Shown here: piece by piece, positions 7,070 through 20,464 of the stretch
Numbering within the stretch: the stretch's first letter is position 1
How the letters are laid out: every line of letters starts with the position of its first letter
Origin: Subtercola sp. Z020
GTDB lineage: Bacteria; Actinomycetota; Actinomycetes; Actinomycetales; Microbacteriaceae
Length of the DNA stretch: 64,000 nucleotides
Direction: 5' to 3'
Assembly (NCBI RefSeq): GCF_002931235.1
Contig: NZ_PSTT01000009.1
Location: 62,001-126,000, forward strand
Notes under the pieces: model-generated
The model's database searches: none
Seen by the model: the letters and a program-made list of their open reading frames with translations, nothing else
What the model was told of the DNA's origin: nothing
Translations under genes and position numbers: made by a program

Positions 7070-8248
7070 ATGCCCACCCACCCCCGGCGCATCGCCGCCT
7101 CGGTCAGCGCTCTCGCCGCGACCGCCCTGCTGCTCAGTGCCTGTTCGACCGGATCATCGTCGTCTGCCGAGACGCCGGCGGCATCCCTCACCGTCGGTGA
7201 CGTCGACCTCGCGGCAGCGGGCTGCCCGGCGAACGTGGTCATCCAGACCGGTTGGAACCCCGAAGCCGAGCACGGGCACCTGTACGAACTGCTCGGCGAC
7301 GACTACACGGTCGACGCGGGGAAGAAGGTCGTGTCAGGCCCGCTGATGTCGAAGGGCTCGTACACCGGCGTGAACGTCGAGATCCGCGCGGGCGGCCCGG
7401 CCACGGGGTACCAGACGGTGACGAGCCTGCTGTACTCCGACCCGAGTATCACGCTCGGCTATGTGTCGACAGACGAGTCGATCTCGCAGTCCGGCACGAT
7501 GCCGACCACCGCGGTGTTCGCGTCGCACGACATCAGCCCGCTGATGATCATGTGGGACCCGGCGACCTACCCCGACGTGAAGGACATCGACGGCCTGGTC
7601 AAGGCGGGGGCGATCATCCGCTACTTCGGCGGTACCGCGTACATGTCGTATCTCACTTCTGCAGGCATCATCCCCGTCGACCAGACCGACGGCTCGTACG
7701 ACGGCACGCCGGCCGCCTACGTCGCGTCGGGCGGCAAGGATGCCCAGCAGGGCTATGCCTCCGCCGAGCCCTACGTGTACCAGAACGAGGTGCAGGCCTG
7801 GCAGAAGCCGGTCGCCTACCAGTTGGTGGACGACCTCGGCTTTCGGCCCTACCAGGACCCGGTCGTCGTTCGAAGCGCCGACATCGGTACGCAGTCGTCG
7901 TGCCTGAAGGCACTGGTGCCCGTGCTGCAGCAGGCCGAGGTCGACTACTTCGCCGCTCCGGATGCTGCCAACGCCCTCATCCTGGACCTGGTCGACCAGT
8001 ACGACACCGGCTGGGTCTACACGAAGGGTGTGGCCGACTACTCGGTGAAGACGATGGTCGACGAGAAGATCTCGGGCAACGGCGACAACGGCACCATCGG
8101 TGACTTCGACGAAGCCCGGGTGCAGGACCTGATCGACAAGGTGCTGCCGGTCTACCAGTCGCAGGGCATCACGCCTGCTGAGGGGCTCGCACCCGGCGAC
8201 CTCGTGACGAACGAGTTCATCGACACGTCGATCGGGATGGCCGGCTGA
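7070..8248 (+). CDS. Orphan ABC substrate-binding lipoprotein, NMT1/SsuA-like
   Basis: The signal peptide ends in the lipobox LLLSAC (Cys25), and the mature 367 residues follow the NMT1/THI5-like periplasmic-binding plan (nitrate, sulfonate or pyrimidine-precursor type). It should be anchored outside the membrane and bind a small organic ligand. No permease or ATPase gene is adjacent: the gene is followed after 2 bp by the convergent GntR gene. It is divergent from the MHS operon across the palindrome at 6802-6831, so the two are probably co-regulated. Without its own translocator it may serve a distant ABC system or act as a sensor. Confidence 0.85.
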   Translation: MPTHPRRIAASVSALAATALLLSACSTGSSSSAETPAASLTVGDVDLAAAGCPANVVIQTGWNPEAEHGHLYELLGDDYTVDAGKKVVSGPLMSKGSYTGVNVEIRAGGPATGYQTVTSLLYSDPSITLGYVSTDESISQSGTMPTTAVFASHDISPLMIMWDPATYPDVKDIDGLVKAGAIIRYFGGTAYMSYLTSAGIIPVDQTDGSYDGTPAAYVASGGKDAQQGYASAEPYVYQNEVQAWQKPVAYQLVDDLGFRPYQDPVVVRSADIGTQSSCLKALVPVLQQAEVDYFAAPDAANALILDLVDQYDTGWVYTKGVADYSVKTMVDEKISGNGDNGTIGDFDEARVQDLIDKVLPVYQSQGITPAEGLAPGDLVTNEFIDTSIGMAG

Positions 8249-8250
8249 CG

Positions 8251-9051
8251 CTAGAGGTCGCCCCGCGAGGGCGCCAGCGCCACCCGGACCCGGTCGGAGC
8301 GCTGGCGCCCGTGGTACAGCATGACCACGGTGCCGCCGGGCTCGCGCACGGTGGTCTCGATGAAGAGGAGCGGCGTGCCGACCTCGGTCGAGAGCAGTTC
8401 GGCGGCAGACAGGTCGGCCGAGATGGCACTGATCTGCCGGTCGGCCGTGAGGTTCTGGTGCCCGAAGCGGCTCTCGAGAATGTCGAACACGTCGTCGTTC
8501 GCGTCGGCGCGATCGAAGGCGTCGCCCGGGCGGAGGGGCAGGTAGTAGGTGCGCAGGGAGCCCGGGCGGCCCTTGTAGAGGATGACCCGCTCGAAGACGG
8601 CCATCCGGTCGACGCTCTCGTCGAATGAGGCCGCCATCGGGGTCGGCACCGCGCTCGTCTCCCGCCAGCCGATCAGCACGTAGTCGTGGTCGACCGGCGG
8701 CGGGTCGATCTTCAGCTGGTCGAGCAGGCGGTCCGTTCGCCAGGTCAGCGGCCGGGCGTTGGCGTAGGTGCCCTGGCCAGCGGTGCGGCCGATCGTGTTC
8801 TCCTGCACGAGCATCTGCATGGCGATGCGTGCGGTGTTGCGGGTGCAGGAGAACTCCCGGGCGATCTGCTCGTCGCTCGGCAGCCGCTCGCCGCTCGCGG
8901 CCGACGACAGCAGGAAGGCCGAGATCAGGTCGCGCAGGCGCCGCGCCTCATCCTGTCGCCGGTGCTGGCCGAGGTCGAGGATCTTGTCGTCGGTGAAACT
9001 GCGGCGGCGCGCGGGATGAGCGCGGTCTGCGCTGCGGTTCTCGGGGCTCAC
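8251..9051 (-). CDS. GntR-family transcriptional regulator, HutC/UTRA type
   Basis: Residues ~30-100 form a winged helix (LPSDEQIAREFSCTRNTARI, then a GQGTY wing). Residues ~115-266 resemble a UTRA ligand-binding domain (VFERVILYKGRPGSLRTYY, then TPLLFIETTVREPGG). The start is GTG. It is the last gene of the minus-strand operon with the two LLM monooxygenases, 12 bp downstream of the second. The likely ligand is a substrate or intermediate of that pathway, and the palindrome at 6802-6831 is its best candidate operator here. Confidence 0.88.
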   Translation of the reverse strand: MSPENRSADRAHPARRRSFTDDKILDLGQHRRQDEARRLRDLISAFLLSSAASGERLPSDEQIAREFSCTRNTARIAMQMLVQENTIGRTAGQGTYANARPLTWRTDRLLDQLKIDPPPVDHDYVLIGWRETSAVPTPMAASFDESVDRMAVFERVILYKGRPGSLRTYYLPLRPGDAFDRADANDDVFDILESRFGHQNLTADRQISAISADLSAAELLSTEVGTPLLFIETTVREPGGTVVMLYHGRQRSDRVRVALAPSRGDL

Positions 9052-9063
9052 GGTCTCAGGCTC

Positions 9064-10410
9064 TCATGCGAAGGCGGGCACTCCGAGGGTGTCGCGGAGC
9101 GTGGTGCCGTCGTACCGCGTGCGGAACCGGCCGCGCCGCTGCAGTTCGGGCACCAGCAGGCCGACCACGTCGATCAGGTCGCGCGGCGTCACCTGGGGGT
9201 GAGCGATCATGAACCCGCCCCGGCTGCCGGTGGACTCGTAGGACTCCTCGAGGTAGTCGGCCACCTCTGCCGCGCTGCCGGCGACGGTGTGTTCGTAGCC
9301 GGTGGCCACCTTCCAGAGCGCGTCGAAGAACTCCTCACGGCTGAGTTCGGTGTCGGCGCCGTGTTCGTTGACGAGGTCGCGAAAGCCCATCGGGCTGGCC
9401 TGCTTCGCGATGACCTCTGCCTGCAGTTCGGCGAGGGTGAAGCGGGCGGGCAGCTGGGCGAAGTCGTAGCCGGTGTTGTGGGCGAACTGCGCGGCCGACG
9501 CCTCCGGCGGCAGCAGGTCGGCGAGTTGCTCCTTGCGTCGGCGTGCGTCGTCGGGTGTGTCTCCCACGATGAGGTGCAGGTCCCACAGAATGCCCACCCG
9601 GGAGGGATCCCGGCCCGCGGCCAGCAGCTCCTGGTCGAGCAGAGTGCGGTGCCGCACGCGGTCGGCCTCTGCGAAGGCGCCGCCGAACACCACGTCGGCG
9701 AATCCTGCTGAGGCACGGATGCCGCGGGGCGACCCGCCGGCCTGGATGAGCACGGGCGCCTGCTGGGGGCTCGGCACGGAGTTCAGCGGCCCGGCGACGG
9801 TGAAGAACTCCCCCTGGTGGTCGATGGCCCGAATGCTGCCGGGCTCGGCCACCATTCCGGTCTCGCGGTCCCACACGAAGGCGTCGCGGTCGACGCTCCG
9901 CCAGAGCTCCTGGCACACGGCCACGAACTCCTCCATGCGGCGGTAGCGCGCATCGTGCTCCATCAGTTCGTCGAAACCGTAGTTCGCGGCATCCGCCCCC
10001 CGACTCGACGTGACGACGTTGAAGGCCATGCGCCCCGCTGTCACGATGTCGAGCGAGTTGAGCAACCGCGAGACGTAGAACGGATGCATGAAGGTCGACG
10101 AGTAGGTCAGCCCGAATCCGATGTGCTCGGTCTGCTGCGCGAGGGCCGCGATGAACGGGCTCATGTCCTGGCGGGGAAAGCCGATGCCCCACTCCACGGC
10201 GGGGTCGATCGATGCGCCGTAGGTGGAGGGGATGCCCGTGCCGTCGCCGAAGAACACCATGTCGAGGCACCCGCGCTCCGCTGCGAGCAGCAGTTCGCGG
10301 TACATGCGCAGGTCGGGGAAGTCCCGGCCCGACCACGACCCGGGCAGCCGCCAGCGGCCCTGGTGGTGTGAGAACGACAGATCGAGGGCGAGACTCATCT
10401 GGTAGGGCAC
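9064..10410 (-). CDS. LLM-class flavin-dependent monooxygenase (NtaA/SnaA/DszA-like)
   Basis: This 448-residue protein is a bacterial-luciferase TIM barrel of the NtaA subfamily. It has the FFGDGTG strand, the AALAQQTEHIGFG segment, GRMAFNVVTS and the GGSPRGIRASAGFADVVF phosphate-binding stretch. Such enzymes use reduced FMN from a separate reductase to oxygenate C-N or C-S substrates such as nitrilotriacetate or dibenzothiophene sulfone. GTG at 10410 is chosen because GAAGAG lies 6 nt before it and it follows the upstream stop by 2 nt. No flavin reductase gene is seen in the window. Confidence 0.88.
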   Translation of the reverse strand: MPYQMSLALDLSFSHHQGRWRLPGSWSGRDFPDLRMYRELLLAAERGCLDMVFFGDGTGIPSTYGASIDPAVEWGIGFPRQDMSPFIAALAQQTEHIGFGLTYSSTFMHPFYVSRLLNSLDIVTAGRMAFNVVTSSRGADAANYGFDELMEHDARYRRMEEFVAVCQELWRSVDRDAFVWDRETGMVAEPGSIRAIDHQGEFFTVAGPLNSVPSPQQAPVLIQAGGSPRGIRASAGFADVVFGGAFAEADRVRHRTLLDQELLAAGRDPSRVGILWDLHLIVGDTPDDARRRKEQLADLLPPEASAAQFAHNTGYDFAQLPARFTLAELQAEVIAKQASPMGFRDLVNEHGADTELSREEFFDALWKVATGYEHTVAGSAAEVADYLEESYESTGSRGGFMIAHPQVTPRDLIDVVGLLVPELQRRGRFRTRYDGTTLRDTLGVPAFA

Positions 10411-10412
10411 GG

Positions 10413-11486
10413 TCAGCTCTTCTCTGGAATGGCCACGTGGTCGAGCAGGGGCATGACCTCGGTGCCGAAACGCTCCAGGCCCTCGGTGAAGTCGTCGAAG
10501 GTCAACATGATGCCGGCGGTGCCGTCGACGGCGGCGATCGCATTGAGGTGATCGGCAATGGTCTGCGGTGAACCGACCAGCGCACTGCCGCCGTAGAACG
10601 GCGAGACATCGGCGCGGTGGCTCTCGGCGACGGCGGCGCTCGAGCCGTCTTTCGCCGTGTCGTTGGAGTACTCGCCCACCATGGTGGCGACAGCCTGCAG
10701 GTCGGTGCCCGCCTGGTAGAGCTCGGCCTTGCGTCTCGCGTCGGCATCCGTGTCGCCGATCACCAGCAGCGAGGTCGCGAACGAGCCGGGAACGCGGCCG
10801 AGGTTCTCGCTCTCTGCGGCCAGGTGAGCGTTCGACCGTGCGACGGATGCCGCGTCGCCACCGGCGCCGAAGTGGTAGTCGGCGAACTCGGCGACGAAAC
10901 GGCGACCGCGCGGCGACGAACCGGCGGAGATGAGGTCGATGTGACCGACCGGGGTGGGCAGCACTTCGCAGTCCTCGATGTCGAAGTGCTCGCCGTGGAA
11001 CGTGACCCGGCCCGTCTCCCACGCGGTGAGCAGAATCTGCGTGAACTCGGTGAGGTAGTCGTAGCGGTAGCCGTAGTACGCATCCCCGGGCCACGCGCCC
11101 ATCTGCGCGTATTCGCTGCGGTTCCAGCCCGCGATGAGGTTCAGGCCGAAGCGACCGCCCGACATCTCGTCGATGAGCTGCGCCATCTTGGCCACGACGA
11201 TCGGGTTGTAGCTCAGCGGCGACACCGTGGCGTAGAGCTTGATGCGCGAGGTGAGCGGTGCGAGCCCGGCCATCAGGGTCATCGGGTCGATGGTGCTGTT
11301 CCAGTGCTGGGTCTCGCCGCCGAAGCCGCGGTACTTCAGCATCGCGAGGGCGAAGTCGAGGCCGTAGTGCTCGGCCCGCTCGACGATGCTGCGCTGCAGG
11401 GCGAACGTCGGCTCGTACTGCGGCGACGTCGTGGAGAGAATCCAGCCGTTGTTGCCGACCGGCAGAAAGACTCCGTAGCTGACCAT
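10413..11486 (-). CDS. LLM-class flavin-dependent monooxygenase (SsuD-like)
   Basis: The 357-residue luciferase-like protein has the N-terminal strand MVSYGVFLPVGNNGW, the GGETQHWNSTIDP segment, SGGRFGLNLIAGW and the AGSSPRGRRFVAEF cofactor region, as in alkanesulfonate or pyrimidine (RutA-like) monooxygenases. The start at 11486 has GGA 8 nt upstream and gives a normal family length; the open frame continues upstream but carries no family sequence. It is paired with a second, distant LLM enzyme, so two successive oxygenations or a two-substrate pathway are possible. Confidence 0.88.
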   Translation of the reverse strand: MVSYGVFLPVGNNGWILSTTSPQYEPTFALQRSIVERAEHYGLDFALAMLKYRGFGGETQHWNSTIDPMTLMAGLAPLTSRIKLYATVSPLSYNPIVVAKMAQLIDEMSGGRFGLNLIAGWNRSEYAQMGAWPGDAYYGYRYDYLTEFTQILLTAWETGRVTFHGEHFDIEDCEVLPTPVGHIDLISAGSSPRGRRFVAEFADYHFGAGGDAASVARSNAHLAAESENLGRVPGSFATSLLVIGDTDADARRKAELYQAGTDLQAVATMVGEYSNDTAKDGSSAAVAESHRADVSPFYGGSALVGSPQTIADHLNAIAAVDGTAGIMLTFDDFTEGLERFGTEVMPLLDHVAIPEKS

Positions 11487-11532: not shown

Positions 11533-13212
11533 CTAGTGGGTGTCGAAGACGCGCTGGTAGTCGGCGACCTTCGCGCGGATGGCGTCGAGCTCGACCGGAG
11601 TGGGCGCATCCGCGTCGACCGGAAGCGGGAGGGTGCCAAACTTCAGCAGGCTCGCCATCAGCAGGATGCGGGCCTTCGGCGCCGACAGGTTGCTGCCGCG
11701 GATGAGCAGGCCGCCCATCGTCGACTGCCCGAACGCGTATCCGCCGCCGCCCCGGCCGACCGCGACCACCGGCATGCCCCGGAACACGCCGCGGAGCAGG
11801 GCCGCCGCCATGGATTCGTAGACCCCGCCGTAGGGCGCCGACCCCTCGGCGACCATCCCGGCGAGGGGGTGGTCGCGGAGGTTCTTCTCGATGCGGGCGA
11901 GAATCTCGACCTCGCTGGCGGCGCTGTCGGTGAAGTCGTCCTGCCCGTAGTTCACGTAGCGGGCGATGGTCACCTTGGGCATCGACTCGGGTCGGAGGTG
12001 GCCGGCCTCTGTGAGTGTCTGCACCGGTTCGCCGCCGAGGCCGGGCACCGAGGAGGGCAGTGCTGAGAGGGTCAGCTCCGAGGTGTGCGTGTGCCGGGCC
12101 ACCGGGAGGAACGAGAGCACCGGCTGCTCGACGGTGTTGCCGACGATTCCGCCGTGGCCGCCGTAGGCGACGTATCCGCCCGGTCGCGCATCGGCCTTCT
12201 GCACCTCGCGGGCCGTGAAGACCTGGCCGTTCTGGATCATGACGGCGCCCACCCGGTCGTGACCCGAGGCATCCGCCCACACCCGGGAGGCGATGTACGT
12301 GGCGGACTGCACCAGGTTGTGGTCGCCGTCGTTGCCGAAGACCCCGTGGCCGTACTGCGAGCAGTTGCCGATCAGGGGCTTCGTGGTGCCAATCACGAGG
12401 TTCAGCCAGTAGATCGTCTCTTCGGTGGTCGGGCTGCCCTCCAGCCAGATCGCGCCGTCGTACTCCCCCGCGGCGAGGGTGTCTGCGACGATGTTGGTGA
12501 GCGCCGCGAGGGTCGGCAACGCCGGTTCCTGCCGCATCGGCATGTAGGGGAAGAAGTGCTCCCCGAGAACCTCGGCTGCGAGATCGCCGGGCTCGCCCCG
12601 GTGGCCGGGTGGGGTCGGGGTGTCGGTGCGCTCGGCGGCCGGCTGGCCCTGGGTGTAGCCACCGGATGGCGCGGCCCGCACGAAGTCGAAGTCGGCGAGG
12701 GACGAGAGCAGGTTGTTGCCGCCGTAACCGTCGAGCCCGAAGTGGTCGATCTCCTCGACGATGCGGGAGGCATCGGGGTAGAACAGCTGCCGTGCGTGGC
12801 CCGCATCGTCGAAGGGGCCGTTCCACGGCTCGCCGTTGGCCTGGGTCGCCGCGTAGGGCAGGGGGTACGGGCCGTTCGAGGGGTCGAGGGTCACCTCGTA
12901 GACGGGCGTGCCGCCGGGCACCTCCTCGGCGCTGAAGGCTCCGGTGTCGGGATGCAGCCAGCCGTCGACCGGGCCGTACAGCTCGCGCGCATCGCGTTCG
13001 AGGGGATGCGCGGAATAGGCCTCGACGAACGCGGTGACCGGGGCGGCGAGCCGCTGGGCCCGCAGCGACTCGGGGAGGGTCTCATCGGCCCCGGCGAGAT
13101 CGCGCTGCCGACGCACGGACTGGCTCGTGCAGAGCGCGGCACTGTTCTGGATCGTGGCCCGGGGGCCGGAGAAGACGACGATGCGGGCGCGCGGCGCGGG
13201 GAGGGAAGCCAT
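11533..13212 (-). CDS. Asparaginase/glutaminase-fold protein with altered catalytic motif
   Basis: Several type I/II L-asparaginase signatures are recognisable: the N-terminal strand with Thr20 (GPRATIQN, in place of TGGTI), GSPTTEET at 259-266 (in place of GTDTMEET), NDGDHNL, and FTAREVQK with the conserved lysine. The protein is 559 residues, against about 330 for the family, with roughly 170 extra residues between the first two motifs. The canonical Thr-Asp pair reads Ser-Pro, so the usual Thr-Lys-Asp triad is not intact. It heads the LLM operon. An amide- or imide-opening hydrolase is possible, but the reaction is not established. Confidence 0.75.
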   Translation of the reverse strand: MASLPAPRARIVVFSGPRATIQNSAALCTSQSVRRQRDLAGADETLPESLRAQRLAAPVTAFVEAYSAHPLERDARELYGPVDGWLHPDTGAFSAEEVPGGTPVYEVTLDPSNGPYPLPYAATQANGEPWNGPFDDAGHARQLFYPDASRIVEEIDHFGLDGYGGNNLLSSLADFDFVRAAPSGGYTQGQPAAERTDTPTPPGHRGEPGDLAAEVLGEHFFPYMPMRQEPALPTLAALTNIVADTLAAGEYDGAIWLEGSPTTEETIYWLNLVIGTTKPLIGNCSQYGHGVFGNDGDHNLVQSATYIASRVWADASGHDRVGAVMIQNGQVFTAREVQKADARPGGYVAYGGHGGIVGNTVEQPVLSFLPVARHTHTSELTLSALPSSVPGLGGEPVQTLTEAGHLRPESMPKVTIARYVNYGQDDFTDSAASEVEILARIEKNLRDHPLAGMVAEGSAPYGGVYESMAAALLRGVFRGMPVVAVGRGGGGYAFGQSTMGGLLIRGSNLSAPKARILLMASLLKFGTLPLPVDADAPTPVELDAIRAKVADYQRVFDTH

Positions 13213-13446: not shown

Positions 13447-15216
13447 ATGTCACACTCAGCGACCGATGTCGCCCCTCGCGCCGGCGACGCCGCCCCCGCT
13501 TCGATGACCCACCGGCAGGTACTCGAGGCGCTGTCGGGCCTGCTGCTCGGAATGTTCGTCGCGATCCTCGCCTCGACCGTCGTCAGCACCTCCCTGCCCC
13601 GCATCATCTCCGACCTCGGCGGCGACGAAGGCGCGTACACTTGGGTGGTCACGTCGACCCTGCTCGCCACGACGGTCTCCACGCCGATCTGGGGCAAGCT
13701 CGCCGACCTCTTCAACCGCAAGCTGCTCATCCAGCTCTCGCTGGTCATCTTCGTGCTCGGTTCCGCTGCGGCCGGCTTCTCGGAGAACACCGGCACCCTG
13801 ATCACCTTCCGGGTCGTGCAGGGCCTCGGTGCAGGCGGGCTCACGGCTCTCAGCCAGATCATCCTCGCCGACATCATCAGCCCGCGCGAGCGAGGCCGGT
13901 ACGGCGGGTACTTCGGTGCCGTCATGGCCGTCGGAACCGTGGGTGGCCCGCTGATCGGTGGGCTGCTCACCGACAGTCTCGGCTGGCGGTGGAACTTCTT
14001 CGTGGGCGTGCCGTTCGCGGTCGCTGCGATCATCCTGCTGCAGGTCACTCTGAAGCTGCGCACCCTTCGCAAGCGGAAGGTGTCGATCGACTATCTCGGC
14101 ATCGCCACCATCGGCGGCGGCGTCTCGCTGCTGCTGATCTGGGTCACCCTGGCGGGCAAGAACTTCGACTGGATCTCGCCGACGTCACTCATCATGGTGA
14201 TCGGCGCGGCCATTCTGCTGGTGGCGACGGTCTTCGTGGAGCTCCGGGCGAAAGAACCGATCATCCCGATGACGCTGTTCAAGAACCGCACCTTCACGTT
14301 CTCGGTCATCGGCTCGATCTCGGTCGGCATCGCGATGTTCGGGGCGACCGTCTACCTCGCCCAGTACATGCAGCTCGCCCGCGGTGCGACGCCGACGCAG
14401 TCGGGGCTGCTGACCATCCCGATGATCGCCGGCCTGCTGCTCTCGTCGACCTTCGGCGGCATTCTGATCACCCGCACCGGCAAGTGGAAGCCGATCATGC
14501 TCGTCGGCTCGATCGCCCTGGTCGTCGGCCTGGCCCTCATGGGAACCATCCAGTACGACACTCCCTACGGCCTCGTCGCGGTCTTCATGTTCGTCACGGG
14601 AGCCGGAGTCGGGTCGGTGATGCAGAACCTCGTGCTGGTGGTGCAGAACACCACGGAGCCCCGCAACATCGGTGCGGCCAGTGCCGGTATCGCGTTCTTC
14701 CGCTCCCTCGGCGGCGCACTCGGCGTCTCGGTGCTCGGCACGGTGCTCGGCAACCGGGTGACCACCCTGATCGGCGACCGGCAAATCGACCTGGGCAAGG
14801 CCATCGCCGCGCTCGGCGACAAGGGTGCGGCGGTCGCGAAGGAGCTCGCGAGCGGTACGATCCCGGCCGTCAGCAGCCTGCCCGACGGTGTTCGCCAGAT
14901 CATCGAGTCCGCCTATGGTCAGGCGGTGGCGAACATCTTCCTGATCGCCGCACCGATCGCCATCCTGCTCGTTCTCGCCGTCATCTTCATGCCCAACAAG
15001 CCCCTCACCACCAAGACCGTCGCCGAGCGCGACACCGACGGGGGAGCCCTCGGCGGGGCGGCGGAAGACGTCGCCGGTGTCGGCTCGGTCGACGTCAGAG
15101 GTGCCGCAGCGGGCGACGTCGCAGCCGGCGCGGCCGCAGCAGACGACGACGCGACCGCAGCAGACGCCGTCGGCGCGGGCCTCAGACGGCGCGGCCGCGA
15201 CGGAGTGCCGCGATGA
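13447..15216 (+). CDS. DHA2-family (EmrB/QacA) multidrug efflux MFS transporter
   Basis: The 589-residue protein has about 14 hydrophobic segments, the motif-C-like RVVQGLGAGGL, GWRWNFF after helix 6, and FFRSLGGALGVS late in the protein, all typical of the drug:H+ antiporter-2 family. It ends in a ~60-residue Ala/Asp-rich hydrophilic tail after VIFMPNKPL. AGGAG lies 8 nt upstream of the ATG at 13447; an earlier in-frame ATG at 13354 falls inside the promoter and is rejected. Its 3' end overlaps the convergent sugar-kinase gene by 35 bp. The exported compound is unknown. Confidence 0.92.
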   Translation: MSHSATDVAPRAGDAAPASMTHRQVLEALSGLLLGMFVAILASTVVSTSLPRIISDLGGDEGAYTWVVTSTLLATTVSTPIWGKLADLFNRKLLIQLSLVIFVLGSAAAGFSENTGTLITFRVVQGLGAGGLTALSQIILADIISPRERGRYGGYFGAVMAVGTVGGPLIGGLLTDSLGWRWNFFVGVPFAVAAIILLQVTLKLRTLRKRKVSIDYLGIATIGGGVSLLLIWVTLAGKNFDWISPTSLIMVIGAAILLVATVFVELRAKEPIIPMTLFKNRTFTFSVIGSISVGIAMFGATVYLAQYMQLARGATPTQSGLLTIPMIAGLLLSSTFGGILITRTGKWKPIMLVGSIALVVGLALMGTIQYDTPYGLVAVFMFVTGAGVGSVMQNLVLVVQNTTEPRNIGAASAGIAFFRSLGGALGVSVLGTVLGNRVTTLIGDRQIDLGKAIAALGDKGAAVAKELASGTIPAVSSLPDGVRQIIESAYGQAVANIFLIAAPIAILLVLAVIFMPNKPLTTKTVAERDTDGGALGGAAEDVAGVGSVDVRGAAAGDVAAGAAAADDDATAADAVGAGLRRRGRDGVPR

Positions 15217-16378
15217 ACCCACCCACGAACGAGTCGCCGAGACCGATCGTGGTGGGTGAGGTGTCGTCGAGCAGGAAGGCCGGGATGCAGACGGCGTCGG
15301 GCATCGAGAGGCGGAGCCCCGCCGCCACCCGGGCGCCCGCCGGGTTCAGGCGCTCGGCGGCCATCCCCTCGTAGTCGGCCAGCGTGAACCCGTCGCCGAA
15401 CCGGTAGCGGGTGCTGGCCATCAGGATGCCGCCGAGCAGCGCCTCGCGGTAGCGCCCGGCGTCGGGGCCCAGCACCACCGACCACAGCGAGGTGTGCACG
15501 ACCAGGTGGCGGGCCGGAACCAGCCGCCGGATGTCGGCCAGGGCCTGCTCGACGGCAGGGGTGTCGAGCAGGTCGACCGCCCTGCCGAGGTGGTTCTCGA
15601 GTTCGTCTTCGTTCATCGAGTAGACGTCGACACGCCCGAGCAGTGCCGCGAGCACCCGCGGCACGAACTCCGGCCGGTGGAAGCCCGAGTCTTCGTAGAA
15701 CACGGTCGCCCCGGGCGGCAGGCAGTCGAGGGCGTCGCACAACTGGTGCAGGCGCTCGTCGAGGGCCCGGGCATCCTGCATCGAATTGAAACCCGAGACG
15801 AGAAAGAGCGACGCCGATGCCAGCGCCGCGGGCAGCTCGGGGCTCAGCTGCAACATCTGGTTGGGCGGGTCGTTCGAGTAGATCAACCGGTTGGCGTGCG
15901 CGGCGGTCAGCAGCACGTCGCCGACCCGCACCGTCGCCCCGACGGGGAACTGGATGATCAGGTGCGGGTCTGTGGTGTCGTGCGGTGCGCTGCTGATGTG
16001 GCTGCTGCCGGGCGGCAGGAGCCGGCGCACGTGGTCGTCGATGCTCACCAGGTGCAGCGTGCTCGTCACGCCGAGCACCTCCATGGCCAGGGCCGCCCGA
16101 ACCCCCGTGCCCCCCAGCGTGATGCGGCTGGTGAAGCGGGCGGCGAAGGCCTCGACGATGCCGGAGGAGGCGACGAAGCGCTCCCCTCCGGCACCGGTGC
16201 TGAGAAAGCCCAGCACCGAGACCACCAGGTCCCGTTCGGTGGCGATCGGATGCCGCGTGCTGAGCTCCGAGACCGCGATGCCGTAGTGCGCGGCGAGGTC
16301 TTCGAGCACGGTCGAGTCCCAGTCGATCTCGTAGTCGACGGTGCCGCCGAGGCCCAGCACGGTTTCGGAGTTCAGCAT
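15182..16378 (-). CDS. ADP-dependent sugar kinase (ADP-phosphofructokinase/glucokinase family)
   Basis: The 398-residue protein has the ADP-GK/PFK family landmarks: GLGGTVDYEI at the N-terminus, the ANRLIYSNDPPNQML segment, LVSGFNSMQD, SMNEDELENHLG and the catalytic GLGDSF (Asp382). These enzymes phosphorylate a sugar or sugar phosphate using ADP as donor, and are best known from archaea. It sits 4 bp downstream of the class II aldolase gene, so its product probably feeds the aldolase. The ATG at 16378 has only a weak ribosome site. ADP use is known for the family and not proved by the sequence; ATP-using members could exist. Confidence 0.85.
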   Translation of the reverse strand: MLNSETVLGLGGTVDYEIDWDSTVLEDLAAHYGIAVSELSTRHPIATERDLVVSVLGFLSTGAGGERFVASSGIVEAFAARFTSRITLGGTGVRAALAMEVLGVTSTLHLVSIDDHVRRLLPPGSSHISSAPHDTTDPHLIIQFPVGATVRVGDVLLTAAHANRLIYSNDPPNQMLQLSPELPAALASASLFLVSGFNSMQDARALDERLHQLCDALDCLPPGATVFYEDSGFHRPEFVPRVLAALLGRVDVYSMNEDELENHLGRAVDLLDTPAVEQALADIRRLVPARHLVVHTSLWSVVLGPDAGRYREALLGGILMASTRYRFGDGFTLADYEGMAAERLNPAGARVAAGLRLSMPDAVCIPAFLLDDTSPTTIGLGDSFVGGFIAALRRGRAV

Positions 16379-16382
16379 GGGA

Positions 16383-17240
16383 TCAGTACAGGTCGGCTTT
16401 ACCGGCGGCTTCGAACAGGTCGATCTTGTGGGCGGCGACCTTCTTCATCGCCGCGATGGCGGGCGGCTGAATGGTGTTCGGTTCGCGAAGACCCTTGTTC
16501 TCCAGCTCTGTGCGCATGGCGTCATGGTAGGCCGCCTTGATGTCGCTCGAGATGTTGATCTTGTTGATGCCGTACTTCACGGCCTCGGCGATCTCGGAGT
16601 CGGGGTTGTTCGAGCCGCCGTGCAGCACGAGCGGAATGGGCAGCAGCGCCTTGATCTCCTGCAGCAGGTCGATGCGCAGCTTCGGCTCCAGATCCTGCGG
16701 GTAGAGGCCGTGGCTGGTGCCGATGGCGATGGCCAGGCTGTCGACGCCGGTCTGCTCCACGAAGTCGACGGCCTCAGAGGGCACCGTGTAGATGATCTCC
16801 CCGCCCTCCTCTGCTTCTTCGTCGAGCTTGCCGATGGTGCCGAGCTCGCCCTCTACCGACAGGCCGACGTCGTGGGCGGTGTCGACGACGCGCTTGGTGA
16901 CGGCGACGTTCTCGTCGAACGGGCGCATCGACATGTCGATCATCACCGAGGTGAAGCCGGCCTGGATCGCCGTCAGCATCTGCTCGTACGATCCGCCGTG
17001 GTCCCAGTGGATCGCCACGGGGATGCTCGATTTGTGAGCGCGCTCGCGGATCGCGAGGATGGCCTCGACGCCCAGGTGGCTCACCTCATCCGGGTGGATC
17101 GCGACGATCATCGGCGCGTTCTTCTCTTCGCTGATCTCGAAGAGGCCGTTCATCATGGCGTAGTCACTGACGTTGAACGCCGGGATCGCGAAGTTGTGTT
17201 CGTTCGCGACGGCGAGCAGGTCTTTACCGGTCATCAGCAT
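16383..17240 (-). CDS. Class II (zinc) fructose/tagatose-bisphosphate aldolase family (GatY/KbaY-like)
   Basis: The 285-residue TIM barrel carries the catalytic Asp80 and the zinc ligand His81 (HWDHGG), Glu132 (VEGELG), His177 (GTSHG) and His207 (LHGGSN). The reaction is retro-aldol cleavage of a ketose (bis)phosphate to DHAP plus an aldehyde. Pairing with a kinase and ABC importer points to a tagatose- or fructose-like substrate, but the exact sugar is open. AAGGAG lies 10 nt before the ATG. It is 67 bp downstream of the permease genes. Confidence 0.93.
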   Translation of the reverse strand: MLMTGKDLLAVANEHNFAIPAFNVSDYAMMNGLFEISEEKNAPMIVAIHPDEVSHLGVEAILAIRERAHKSSIPVAIHWDHGGSYEQMLTAIQAGFTSVMIDMSMRPFDENVAVTKRVVDTAHDVGLSVEGELGTIGKLDEEAEEGGEIIYTVPSEAVDFVEQTGVDSLAIAIGTSHGLYPQDLEPKLRIDLLQEIKALLPIPLVLHGGSNNPDSEIAEAVKYGINKINISSDIKAAYHDAMRTELENKGLREPNTIQPPAIAAMKKVAAHKIDLFEAAGKADLY

Positions 17241-17307
17241 GGTTGGTTGTTCTCCTTGTTGTGGTGGTGCGGGCGGTGGGTCGAAGGGCGCGAGGGATGT
17301 CGCGGGG

Positions 17308-18153
17308 TCAGCTCTTCACGGAACCGGAGGTCAGACCGCCGATGAAGTAGCGCTGGAAGATGAGGAAGAGCAGCAGCACGGGGATGCTGCCCATGATCGA
17401 GATGGCCATCATCTGGTTCCACTCGTAGGAGTTCTGCCCGATCAGGAGCTGGATGCCGACCGGCACCGTGCGCAGGTCGTTGGTTCGGGTCAGCGTCAGG
17501 GCGAACAGGTACTCGTTCCACGAGATCATGAACGTGTAGACGGCCACCGAGACGATGCCGGGCACGGAGATCGGCACCAGGATTCGCCAGAGCGCGGTCC
17601 AGGCTCCCGCGCCGTCGACCTTGACCGCCTCGTCGAGCTCTTTGGGCAGGGTGTTGAAGTACGCCGTCATCATGATGATCGCGTAGGGCAGCGTGAACAC
17701 GATGTAGGTCAGAATGAGGCCCGCGTAGGTGTTGTAGAGCCCGAGCGAGACCATCAGGCCGAAGAACGGAATGATGAGCGCGATCGGCGGCACCGCCTGG
17801 GTGCCGATGATGATGACGTTCATCACCCGCTTGCCGCGGAACTCGTACCGGCTGAAGGCGTAGGCCGCCATGATGGCGAACAGCACGGTCAGTGCGGTCA
17901 CCGAGAGGGCGACCACGTAGCTGTTGATGAAGAAGCGGATCTCCTCCGGGTCGTTCAGGACCGCGAGGTAGGCGTCGAAGCTGAAACCCTGGGTGATGAT
18001 CTGCGGCGGGTAGGCGAAGATCTCGGTGTTCGTCTTGAAACTGCTGATGAGCATCCAGAACACCGGAAAGCCGGCGAAGACCGCGCCGACCAGCAGGCCG
18101 ACGAGCAGCGCGACGCGGAGCCCGACCTTGCGGGGGGTGGTGATGGTGGACAT
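17308..18153 (-). CDS. CUT1 sugar ABC transporter permease (MalG-type)
   Basis: This 281-residue protein has six hydrophobic segments and the cytoplasmic EAA-loop sequence LDEAVKVDGAGAWTALWRI. The ending GLTSGSVKS is typical of MalG-type subunits. The start at 18153 lies 2 nt past the stop of the partner permease; an earlier in-frame start would run into that gene. It forms the inner-membrane channel with its partner for the sugar bound by the SBP at 19175-20464. Confidence 0.92.
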   Translation of the reverse strand: MSTITTPRKVGLRVALLVGLLVGAVFAGFPVFWMLISSFKTNTEIFAYPPQIITQGFSFDAYLAVLNDPEEIRFFINSYVVALSVTALTVLFAIMAAYAFSRYEFRGKRVMNVIIIGTQAVPPIALIIPFFGLMVSLGLYNTYAGLILTYIVFTLPYAIIMMTAYFNTLPKELDEAVKVDGAGAWTALWRILVPISVPGIVSVAVYTFMISWNEYLFALTLTRTNDLRTVPVGIQLLIGQNSYEWNQMMAISIMGSIPVLLLFLIFQRYFIGGLTSGSVKS

Positions 18154-18155
18154 GG

Positions 18156-19076
18156 TCAGCTCTCCGATCGTTGCGAGCGCACGTAGAAGACAGCGACGAT
18201 GAGCGAGAAGACGAGCACGATCACCGCGCTCGCCGAGGCTGCCGAGAAGTCGAAGCCCGTGAACGCGAGCTTGTAGGTGAAGGTGCTCAGCATCTCGGTG
18301 ACGCTGATCGGGCCGCCACCGGTCGTGAGCCAGATGAGGGCGAACTGCTGCGTCGTCCACAGAACGTCGAGCATGGCCATCGAGATGATGATCGGGCGCA
18401 GTTGGGGCAGCGTCACGTTCAGAAACTGCTGGAACCCGGATGCGCCGTCGACGCGCGCTGCCTCATAGAGGTCGGCGGGTACGCCCTGCAGGCCCGCGAG
18501 GAGGCTGATCATGAAGAACGGGTAGCCGGCCCAGATGTTCATCACGGTCACGGCGAACAGGGCAGAGGCCGGGTCGCCGAACCAGGCGATCGGGCTGCCG
18601 GTGAGGTGCACCGCCTGCAGCAGGTAGTTGATGACGCCCTGCGGGTCGAGCAGCAGTCGCCAGAGCACCGCGATGATGGCGGCCGTGAACAGCCACGGCA
18701 GAATGTAGATGACGCGGAAGACCGCTCGCGGCACCGCACCGATCAGCTTCGAGTTCAGCATCAGCGAGAAGCCGAGCCCGATGAGCAGATGGGCGACGAC
18801 GCTCGTGACGGTGAAGACGAGCGTGTTGAGGGCGGCGTTCCAGAACTCGGGGTCGGTGAGCAGGGTCACATAGTTGGTCAGGCCTGCGAACGACGCGTTC
18901 TTGGTGGTGATGGCCCCGTCTGACACGGAGTAGCTGACGACCAGGATGATCGGAACGACCATCAGGGCGATCAGGAGGATCGCGGTGGGGGCGACGAAGC
19001 CGTAGGGCGCGGTCTTGCCCGCGAGGCGCGCCGACCCGAATCGGGACGAGGTTCGTTTCGCACGCAGAGCTGTCAT
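18156..19076 (-). CDS. CUT1 sugar ABC transporter permease (MalF-type)
   Basis: The 306-residue permease has six predicted helices and the EAA loop YEAARVDGASGFQQFLNVT. MTALRAKR at 19076 is chosen because GGAAAGAAG lies 8 nt upstream; an ATG 11 codons earlier has no such site. The gene is separated from the SBP gene by 98 bp containing a stem-loop at 19107-19145, which probably lowers permease expression relative to the SBP. Confidence 0.92.
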   Translation of the reverse strand: MTALRAKRTSSRFGSARLAGKTAPYGFVAPTAILLIALMVVPIILVVSYSVSDGAITTKNASFAGLTNYVTLLTDPEFWNAALNTLVFTVTSVVAHLLIGLGFSLMLNSKLIGAVPRAVFRVIYILPWLFTAAIIAVLWRLLLDPQGVINYLLQAVHLTGSPIAWFGDPASALFAVTVMNIWAGYPFFMISLLAGLQGVPADLYEAARVDGASGFQQFLNVTLPQLRPIIISMAMLDVLWTTQQFALIWLTTGGGPISVTEMLSTFTYKLAFTGFDFSAASASAVIVLVFSLIVAVFYVRSQRSES

Positions 19077-19106
19077 GTGTGGTGCTTCTTTCCGAGAGGA
19101 GAGGGT

Positions 19107-19145
19107 CACGCCGCATCCGTCATGTGGGGTGGCAGATGCGGCGTG
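19107..19145 (-). repeat. 11-bp stem-loop between SBP and permease genes
   Basis: CACGCCGCATC (19107-19117) and GATGCGGCGTG (19135-19145) are perfect inverted repeats around a 17-nt loop, 30 nt downstream of the SBP stop. A small second hairpin, GGCCT-aga-AGGCC (19172-19184), overlaps that stop codon. Such elements usually stabilise or partly terminate the SBP transcript. Confidence 0.7.
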
Positions 19146-19174
19146 CCCGAACTACAGCGAGTTCTGGGAGGGGC

Positions 19175-20464
19175 CTAGAAGGCCTTCGTCCAGCTCTCCT
19201 GGGTGGTCTTGAGCATGTCGCCCACGCTCTCGTCGCCGTTCAGCGTCTTCTGGAACTCGGTGTCGAAGTCGCGCATCAGCTGGTCTGAGGTGGGCAGGCC
19301 GACGAACTCGTTCGCGGGGTAGCCGGCCTGGTAGATCTTGAACGCCTCCTCGTAGAGGGGGTCGCTGCCGGTGAAGTCGGGCGTCGCCGTGCTGTTGGCC
19401 GGGAAGCCGTGCGCAAGGCTCGAGATGTTCGCGTTGACGTCTTTGCTCATCAGGTACTGCACGAACTTCCACGACTCGGCCTTGTGCTCGGAGTTGTTCG
19501 ACACACCGATGCCCCACGAGGCGAAGGGGATGCCGCGCTTGCCGGTGTAACCGTCGGTCGCCGGGATGGCGGAGATGCTGAACTTCAGGTTGGGGTTGGC
19601 GTCGCGGATGGTGGTGATGTGCGCGAGGGAGTCGACCATCATCCCGACCTGCCCATTGGTGAACTGGGTCACCTTGTCGGGCTCCTGCAGGGTGAAGGTA
19701 CCGTCGGCGACCACCTTGGCGTCGTAGAGCGACTTCACGTAGTCGACGGCGCTCGTGACACCGTCGTTGGTGAGGTCGGGCTTGCCGTCTTTCAGCATGC
19801 TGCCGCCCGAGGCCCAGAGCCACGACATGACATCGTTCTGCACGCCGTTGGGGTTGGTGGTTCCGAGGGGGAGGATCCAGCCCTTCGCCGAGGTCTTCTC
19901 GGTGATCGCCTTCGCGTCGGCCAGGAACTCGTCGCGGGTGGCCGGGGGCGTAGTGACGCCGGCCTGGGCGAGCAGCTCGTCGTTCGTGAAGAGCGGGTAG
20001 ACGAAGTTGACCACGGGAATGGCGTAGGTCGAGCCCTCGATCTGCACCTGGCTCGAGAGCTGGCTGTCGTCGTAGTTCGACGACTTCATCTCGTCGCTGA
20101 GGTTGTCGAGGGCGCCCTGCTTGACCAGGTTGTTCACCCACGCCCCATCGAGGCCGACGACGTCGGCGAGGGTGCCGGAGACGCCGGCCGTCGTCGTCTG
20201 GTCCTGCAGGGAGGAATAGGGCTGGGTGAGGAGCTTGACGGTGATGTTCGGGTTCTCGGCCTGGAAGCCGTCGACGATCTTCTGGAGGTCGCCGTCGGGG
20301 AGCTCGGAGCCCCACCACTGCGAGAACTCGATCGTCACCTTGCCGTCTGCGCTGGTGGAGCTGCCGCTGCTGCTGCAGCCGGCGGTGAGAAGGACTGCGG
20401 TCGTCGCGAGGGCCAGCCCTGCGAGCGTGACCCGACGGCCTCGAGCAACGTTGCTCATGTTCAT
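19175..20464 (-). CDS. CUT1 sugar-binding lipoprotein
   Basis: The signal peptide ends in a lipobox (LLTAGC, Cys30) followed by a Ser-rich linker and a ~390-residue family 1 solute-binding domain (VTIEFSQWWG at its start, SWKFVQYLMS near the C-terminus). It captures the sugar outside the cell for the two downstream permeases. The frame offers ATG at 20464 or two codons later; the second has GGA 5 nt upstream. It is the first gene of the aldolase/kinase operon and is divergent from the DeoR regulator. Confidence 0.92.
   Translation of the reverse strand: MNMSNVARGRRVTLAGLALATTAVLLTAGCSSSGSSTSADGKVTIEFSQWWGSELPDGDLQKIVDGFQAENPNITVKLLTQPYSSLQDQTTTAGVSGTLADVVGLDGAWVNNLVKQGALDNLSDEMKSSNYDDSQLSSQVQIEGSTYAIPVVNFVYPLFTNDELLAQAGVTTPPATRDEFLADAKAITEKTSAKGWILPLGTTNPNGVQNDVMSWLWASGGSMLKDGKPDLTNDGVTSAVDYVKSLYDAKVVADGTFTLQEPDKVTQFTNGQVGMMVDSLAHITTIRDANPNLKFSISAIPATDGYTGKRGIPFASWGIGVSNNSEHKAESWKFVQYLMSKDVNANISSLAHGFPANSTATPDFTGSDPLYEEAFKIYQAGYPANEFVGLPTSDQLMRDFDTEFQKTLNGDESVGDMLKTTQESWTKAF

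Follow-up and report, generated by a model that had tools for sequence, protein, structure and literature searches.

The window, by which we mean the whole 64,000-nucleotide stretch of a Subtercola sp. Z020 contig that was analyzed, harbors a gene for an asparaginase-fold protein that stands at the head of a short run (Table 1). It is followed, after 46 bases, by a gene for a RutA-like flavin monooxygenase, then by an NtaA/DmoA-like gene whose GTG start lies directly after the rutA-like stop, and finally by a GntR/UTRA-type regulator, so that the two flavin monooxygenases that a preliminary description had placed in an operon with this gene are indeed present (11486..10413 and 10410..9064), ahead of the regulator. 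The RutA-like protein keeps Thr105, Asn134, and Trp139; the residue aligned with Glu292 differs, in a region where the alignment is uncertain (for the roles of these four residues in RutA, see the accessible part of PMC10005588). The putative lipoprotein gene beyond the regulator has no Pfam match, and similarly weak binding-protein matches occur at the corresponding place in several relatives. Elsewhere in the window (15182-20464) lies a sugar-type run that comprises a gene with weak similarity to ADP-dependent glucokinase, a class II aldolase family protein, and apparent ABC sugar transporter genes.

Table 1. Features of the asparaginase-fold locus, with positions in the window
Feature	Position	Strand	Evidence
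Asparaginase-fold protein, 559 aa, ATG start	11533..13212	-	Open reading frame; PF00710; alignment to class 1 asparaginases
Thr20 codon in GPRATIQN, inferred counterpart of the Thr12 nucleophile	13153..13155	-	Invariant in 17/17 family rows
Conserved insertion, about residues 73-232 (borders approximate)	12517..12996	-	27/160 positions invariant in 17 rows
Ser260-Pro261, replacing Thr89-Asp90	12430..12435	-	S-P in 17/17 family rows, T-D in 19/19 canonical rows
Lys339, counterpart of Lys162	12196..12198	-	K in 17/17 family and 19/19 canonical rows
RutA-like flavin monooxygenase	10413..11486	-	TIGR03612, 384.1 bits, below cut-off of 498.3; 44% identical to E. coli RutA
NtaA/DmoA-family FMN-dependent monooxygenase	9064..10410	-	TIGR03860, 350.3 bits, above cut-off of 279.7
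GntR/UTRA-type regulator, at the end of the run	8251..9051	-	PF07702 and PF00392 above cut-off
Putative ABC substrate-binding lipoprotein, system membership uncertain	7070..8248	+	Weak 37-bit match to the A. vitis cluster binding protein

Residues 233-525 of the 559-residue protein are alignable with canonical class 1 asparaginases (hhalign, 99% probability). The asparaginase N-terminal domain, PF00710, scores 36.2 bits over residues 235-342 against a Pfam cut-off of 22.5, and the C-terminal domain, PF17763, scores 21.7 bits, below its cut-off of 34.6, with the hhalign alignment extending through residue 525. The best PDB match of an 11-row family profile is an L-asparaginase (E 1.2e-19). The protein nevertheless falls far below the cut-off of the type II asparaginase model TIGR00520 (41.3 vs. 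314.3 bits).

One departure lies in the active site. Searched against the PDB with phmmer, GSPTTEET (residues 259-266) pairs with the GTDTMEET of solved asparaginases, and profile comparison places E. coli AnsB Thr89 on Ser260 and Asp90 on Pro261 with a posterior above 0.99 at the motif, and Lys162 on Lys339 at 0.98. The preliminary description had read the motif in this way, and its reading proves correct. The Thr89 column holds T in all 19 canonical rows and S in all 17 family rows, the Asp90 column D and P, respectively, and the Lys162 column K throughout (36/36). The REVQK and DGxxNL motifs are retained, as had been noted. Because Ser-Pro is found in every family row and Thr-Asp in every canonical one, the replacement is a subfamily trait rather than the oddity of a single sequence. 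As read from these alignments, the family keeps the hydroxyl (Ser)–Lys half of the triad and loses the Asp half. The family alignment of 17 rows omits repeat loci from the same or near-identical genomes, and one family alignment also leaves out the window itself (L001) and a gene in pieces (L024); the canonical set of 19 rows leaves out L004, whose start pattern did not match, and L058, which has a wrong start. L004 (1117-2316) is a canonical-looking actinobacterial asparaginase that reads GTNIMEE, with Asn where Asp90 would stand, a second way in which this site has changed.

One correction concerns the nucleophile. In the accessible part of PMC12951835, the primary nucleophile of class 1 enzymes is Thr12, not Thr89, so loss of the nucleophile does not follow from the change in the triad alone. 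The motif GP.AT[IV].N is invariant among the family rows, and from its position and spacing Thr20 appears to be the equivalent of Thr12, which in class 1 enzymes lies on the flexible N-terminal loop. Profile alignment lends this pairing no statistical support: the hhalign alignment did not cross the insertion to the N-terminus, and the N-terminal blocks of family and canonical rows, when aligned separately, gave a probability of 1%. With Thr20 taken as Thr12, 240 residues separate it from Ser260, compared with 77 between Thr12 and Thr89 of AnsB. The large insertion that had been described between the two motifs is therefore real, at about 160 residues rather than about 170. Pfam searches with two members matched no family in this segment, and the PDB gave only one chance-level match (E 1.6). 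With dN/dS inside it of about 0.14 and 0.18 (vs. the same-genus and Herbiconiux copies) and the invariant positions listed in Table 1, the insertion is constrained sequence.

The gene as a whole is under purifying selection, with dN/dS of about 0.10 against a same-genus copy (G001; dN 0.048, dS 0.474) and about 0.19 against a Herbiconiux copy (L018; dN 0.107, dS 0.564). Sequencing error or a pseudogene was considered and ruled out, given these ratios and the absence of internal stops in the window gene and in the counted relatives. Since Ser-Pro is fixed in the family, the insertion is conserved, and selection is purifying, the protein represents a genuine, patchily distributed subfamily, neither a misreading nor a decaying gene. 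Structure prediction for the window protein with four close relatives gave no reliable model (mean pLDDT 31.3, pTM 0.23). A search of the open-access literature, with subscription papers and preprints mostly outside its scope, found no recognizable account of an S-P asparaginase-fold subfamily, which is a real, conserved, and apparently uncharacterized variant of the fold.

The subfamily is rare. With the Subtercola genome itself counted, matches were found in 12 of 398 genomes at the family level (E <= 1e-20), in 3 of 396 at the order level and 3 of 394 at the class level (both at 1e-30), and in 2 of 396 at the phylum level (1e-15). A scan of genome contigs yielded four Herbiconiux loci; among 72,556 plasmid records there were four with a match, all from Rhizobiaceae and at 41-43% identity, and a scan of 26 viral-contig stretches found no relative. 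Such a rare and patchy distribution suggests horizontal spread. One genome (G218) carries two diverged copies (L029 and L034) in two different contexts, one with a RutA/NtaA-like pair and the other with a RutB-like hydrolase. On a plasmid of Neorhizobium sp. EC2-8 (L024, 8003-9681), the gene is split into open segments that differ in frame, so that either it is broken or the record contains an error; an intact RutA-like gene lies just upstream.

Of 21 distinct loci, 12 have a RutA-like gene, and 11 of these an NtaA-like gene as well; five loci have instead a RutB-like hydrolase and an NMT1-type binding protein, and two have formamidase-like and urease genes. One of these sets is therefore found at 19 of the 21 loci, the remaining two (L035 and L045) having none. 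In the 17-row tree, two separate branches carry the monooxygenase linkage, and two the RutB-like/NMT1 linkage. On the A. vitis plasmid, the order is flavin reductase, GntR regulator, ABC transporter, LLM oxidoreductase, NtaA/DmoA monooxygenase, hypothetical protein, asparaginase-fold gene, and a second hypothetical protein; the NtaA-like proteins of this cluster and of the window are 57% identical, and the RutA-like ones only 34%. On the R. tumorigenes plasmid, an ABC transporter and an acetamidase/formamidase precede the asparaginase-fold gene and urease genes follow it, with no monooxygenase nearby. Urease structural and accessory genes lie directly 3′ of the asparaginase-fold gene on both the R. 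tumorigenes (L023, 11048-18729) and R. rhododendri (L025) plasmids, a hint that the pathway in these two clusters yields urea or something akin to it. A parallel cluster on a plasmid of Rhodococcus sp. PD04 (L063, 10004-14955) has a RutA-like monooxygenase 47% identical to that of the window, together with an oligopeptide-type ABC transporter, a flavin reductase, an amidohydrolase, a formamidase-like protein, and an amidase, and has no asparaginase-fold gene.

We consider it reasonably probable that the protein is a hydrolase which retains the class 1 asparaginase fold, no longer acts on asparagine, and takes part in the catabolism of small nitrogen compounds. Its substrate is probably an amide, imide, or ureide arising in the breakdown of small N-heterocyclic compounds, given that the motif alignment holds, Ser-Pro is fixed in the subfamily, selection is purifying, and the neighbors are amide, ureide, and ring-opening enzymes. 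The earlier suggestion of a new amidase or imidase, or of a different use of the fold, thus agrees best with motif, selection, and neighbors, with the proviso that an imidase is indistinguishable here from an amidase or ureidase. Linkage at 19 of 21 loci, on separate branches of the tree, and the annotations of the A. vitis and R. tumorigenes plasmid clusters support this explanation, and the two loci that lack any partner gene count against it. As the partner sets differ between clades, a single common substrate is doubtful. Barbiturase/ureidomalonase was also weighed as a clue to what the substrate might be and dropped, as nothing links it to the S-P family.

In the scheme we propose, a transporter would import a small compound with a nitrogen-containing ring; oxygenation of a C–N bond by the RutA-like enzyme, together with its NtaA-like partner, would open the ring; and the asparaginase-fold protein would then hydrolyze the resulting amide, imide, or ureide, releasing nitrogen. 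In AnsB, according to the accessible part of PMC8256714, the leaving amine receives its proton from Thr89 and Lys162, which also activate water; the proton sink is formed by Asp90 and the substrate carboxylate. By analogy, Thr20 would be the nucleophile, Ser260–Lys339 could play the part of Thr89–Lys162, and another residue may have taken over the proton-sink role of Asp90, possibly an acidic residue within the insertion. With lower probability, the protein may represent an undescribed enzyme class, a Ser–Lys (or Thr plus Ser–Lys) amidohydrolase whose large insertion would remodel the catalytic site to fit a cyclic imide or ureide. It would operate in undescribed N-heterocycle pathways on mobile clusters of soil- and plant-associated bacteria, with RutA-like ring opening and final nitrogen release by this enzyme.

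How else might the same residues be read? The nucleophile may have moved, with Ser260, activated by Lys339, forming a Ser–Lys dyad that acts on an amide-type bond and Thr20 confined to a structural or oxyanion role. In favor of such a dyad are the pattern of Thr89 changed to Ser, Lys kept, and Asp lost in all family rows, and the example of the class 3 asparaginases, an unrelated group in which Ser–Lys tandems carry out catalysis (PMC12951835, accessible part). However, GP.AT[IV].N is likewise invariant, and it is Thr12 that serves class 1 enzymes as primary nucleophile; we regard a relocated nucleophile as rather improbable. Alternatively, the protein may be a catalytically dead homologue that serves the pathway by binding, by regulation, or as a subunit, the AnsB D90T/K162T double mutant being dead (PMC6667453, accessible part) and one of those two residues being changed here. 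Yet Lys, Ser, and Thr20 are invariant across proteins with about 41% identity, and the R. tumorigenes gene has hydrolases for neighbors and no monooxygenase in its vicinity, which makes a dead protein improbable in our view.

An ordinary L-asparaginase or glutaminase with an odd sequence would account for the PF00710 score above its gathering threshold and for the annotation of relatives as “asparaginase domain-containing protein”. Asp90 and Lys162, however, are described in the accessible part of PMC6667453 as invariant among L-asparaginases, with Asp90 critical for binding canonical substrates, and none of the 17 family rows retains Asp90. For this reason, as far as sequence can tell, ordinary asparaginase activity is unlikely in the S-P family, and with the low type II score and the ring-opening and amide/ureide neighbors weighed in as well, we hold this last reading to be very improbable. 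That the asparaginase fold can be turned to another substrate has a precedent in mammalian ASPG, discussed below.

A conserved natural family without Asp90 provides a direct test of what this residue does in L-asparaginases, and also of whether one half of the active site, that of Thr12 or that of Thr89, suffices without the other. The fold is also that of a cancer drug, and the gene clusters point to unassigned nitrogen-ring catabolism.

Among the closest known systems are the class 1 L-asparaginases themselves (AnsB/AnsA; PF00710, PF17763), with which the window protein is alignable over a stretch that spans the GSPTTEET region and the Lys motif and, in the hhalign alignment, takes in the C-terminal domain. 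It differs from them in the Asp90-to-Pro and Thr89-to-Ser changes, in its roughly 160 extra residues, and in scoring far below the NCBIfam asparaginase cut-offs. Mammalian ASPG, the 60-kDa lysophospholipase, resembles it by description rather than by sequence comparison, as an asparaginase-like domain serving another substrate (PMC12436650, accessible part); unlike ASPG, which has ankyrin repeats, the window protein has none detectable by Pfam. The E. coli Rut pathway, finally, recalls the neighborhoods, in which a RutA-like monooxygenase, or at other loci a RutB-like hydrolase, lies beside the asparaginase-fold gene. Both fall below their NCBIfam cut-offs, however (384.1 vs. 498.3 for the RutA-like protein, 117.2 vs. 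377.95 for the RutB-like one), and the E. coli rut operon itself has no asparaginase-fold gene.
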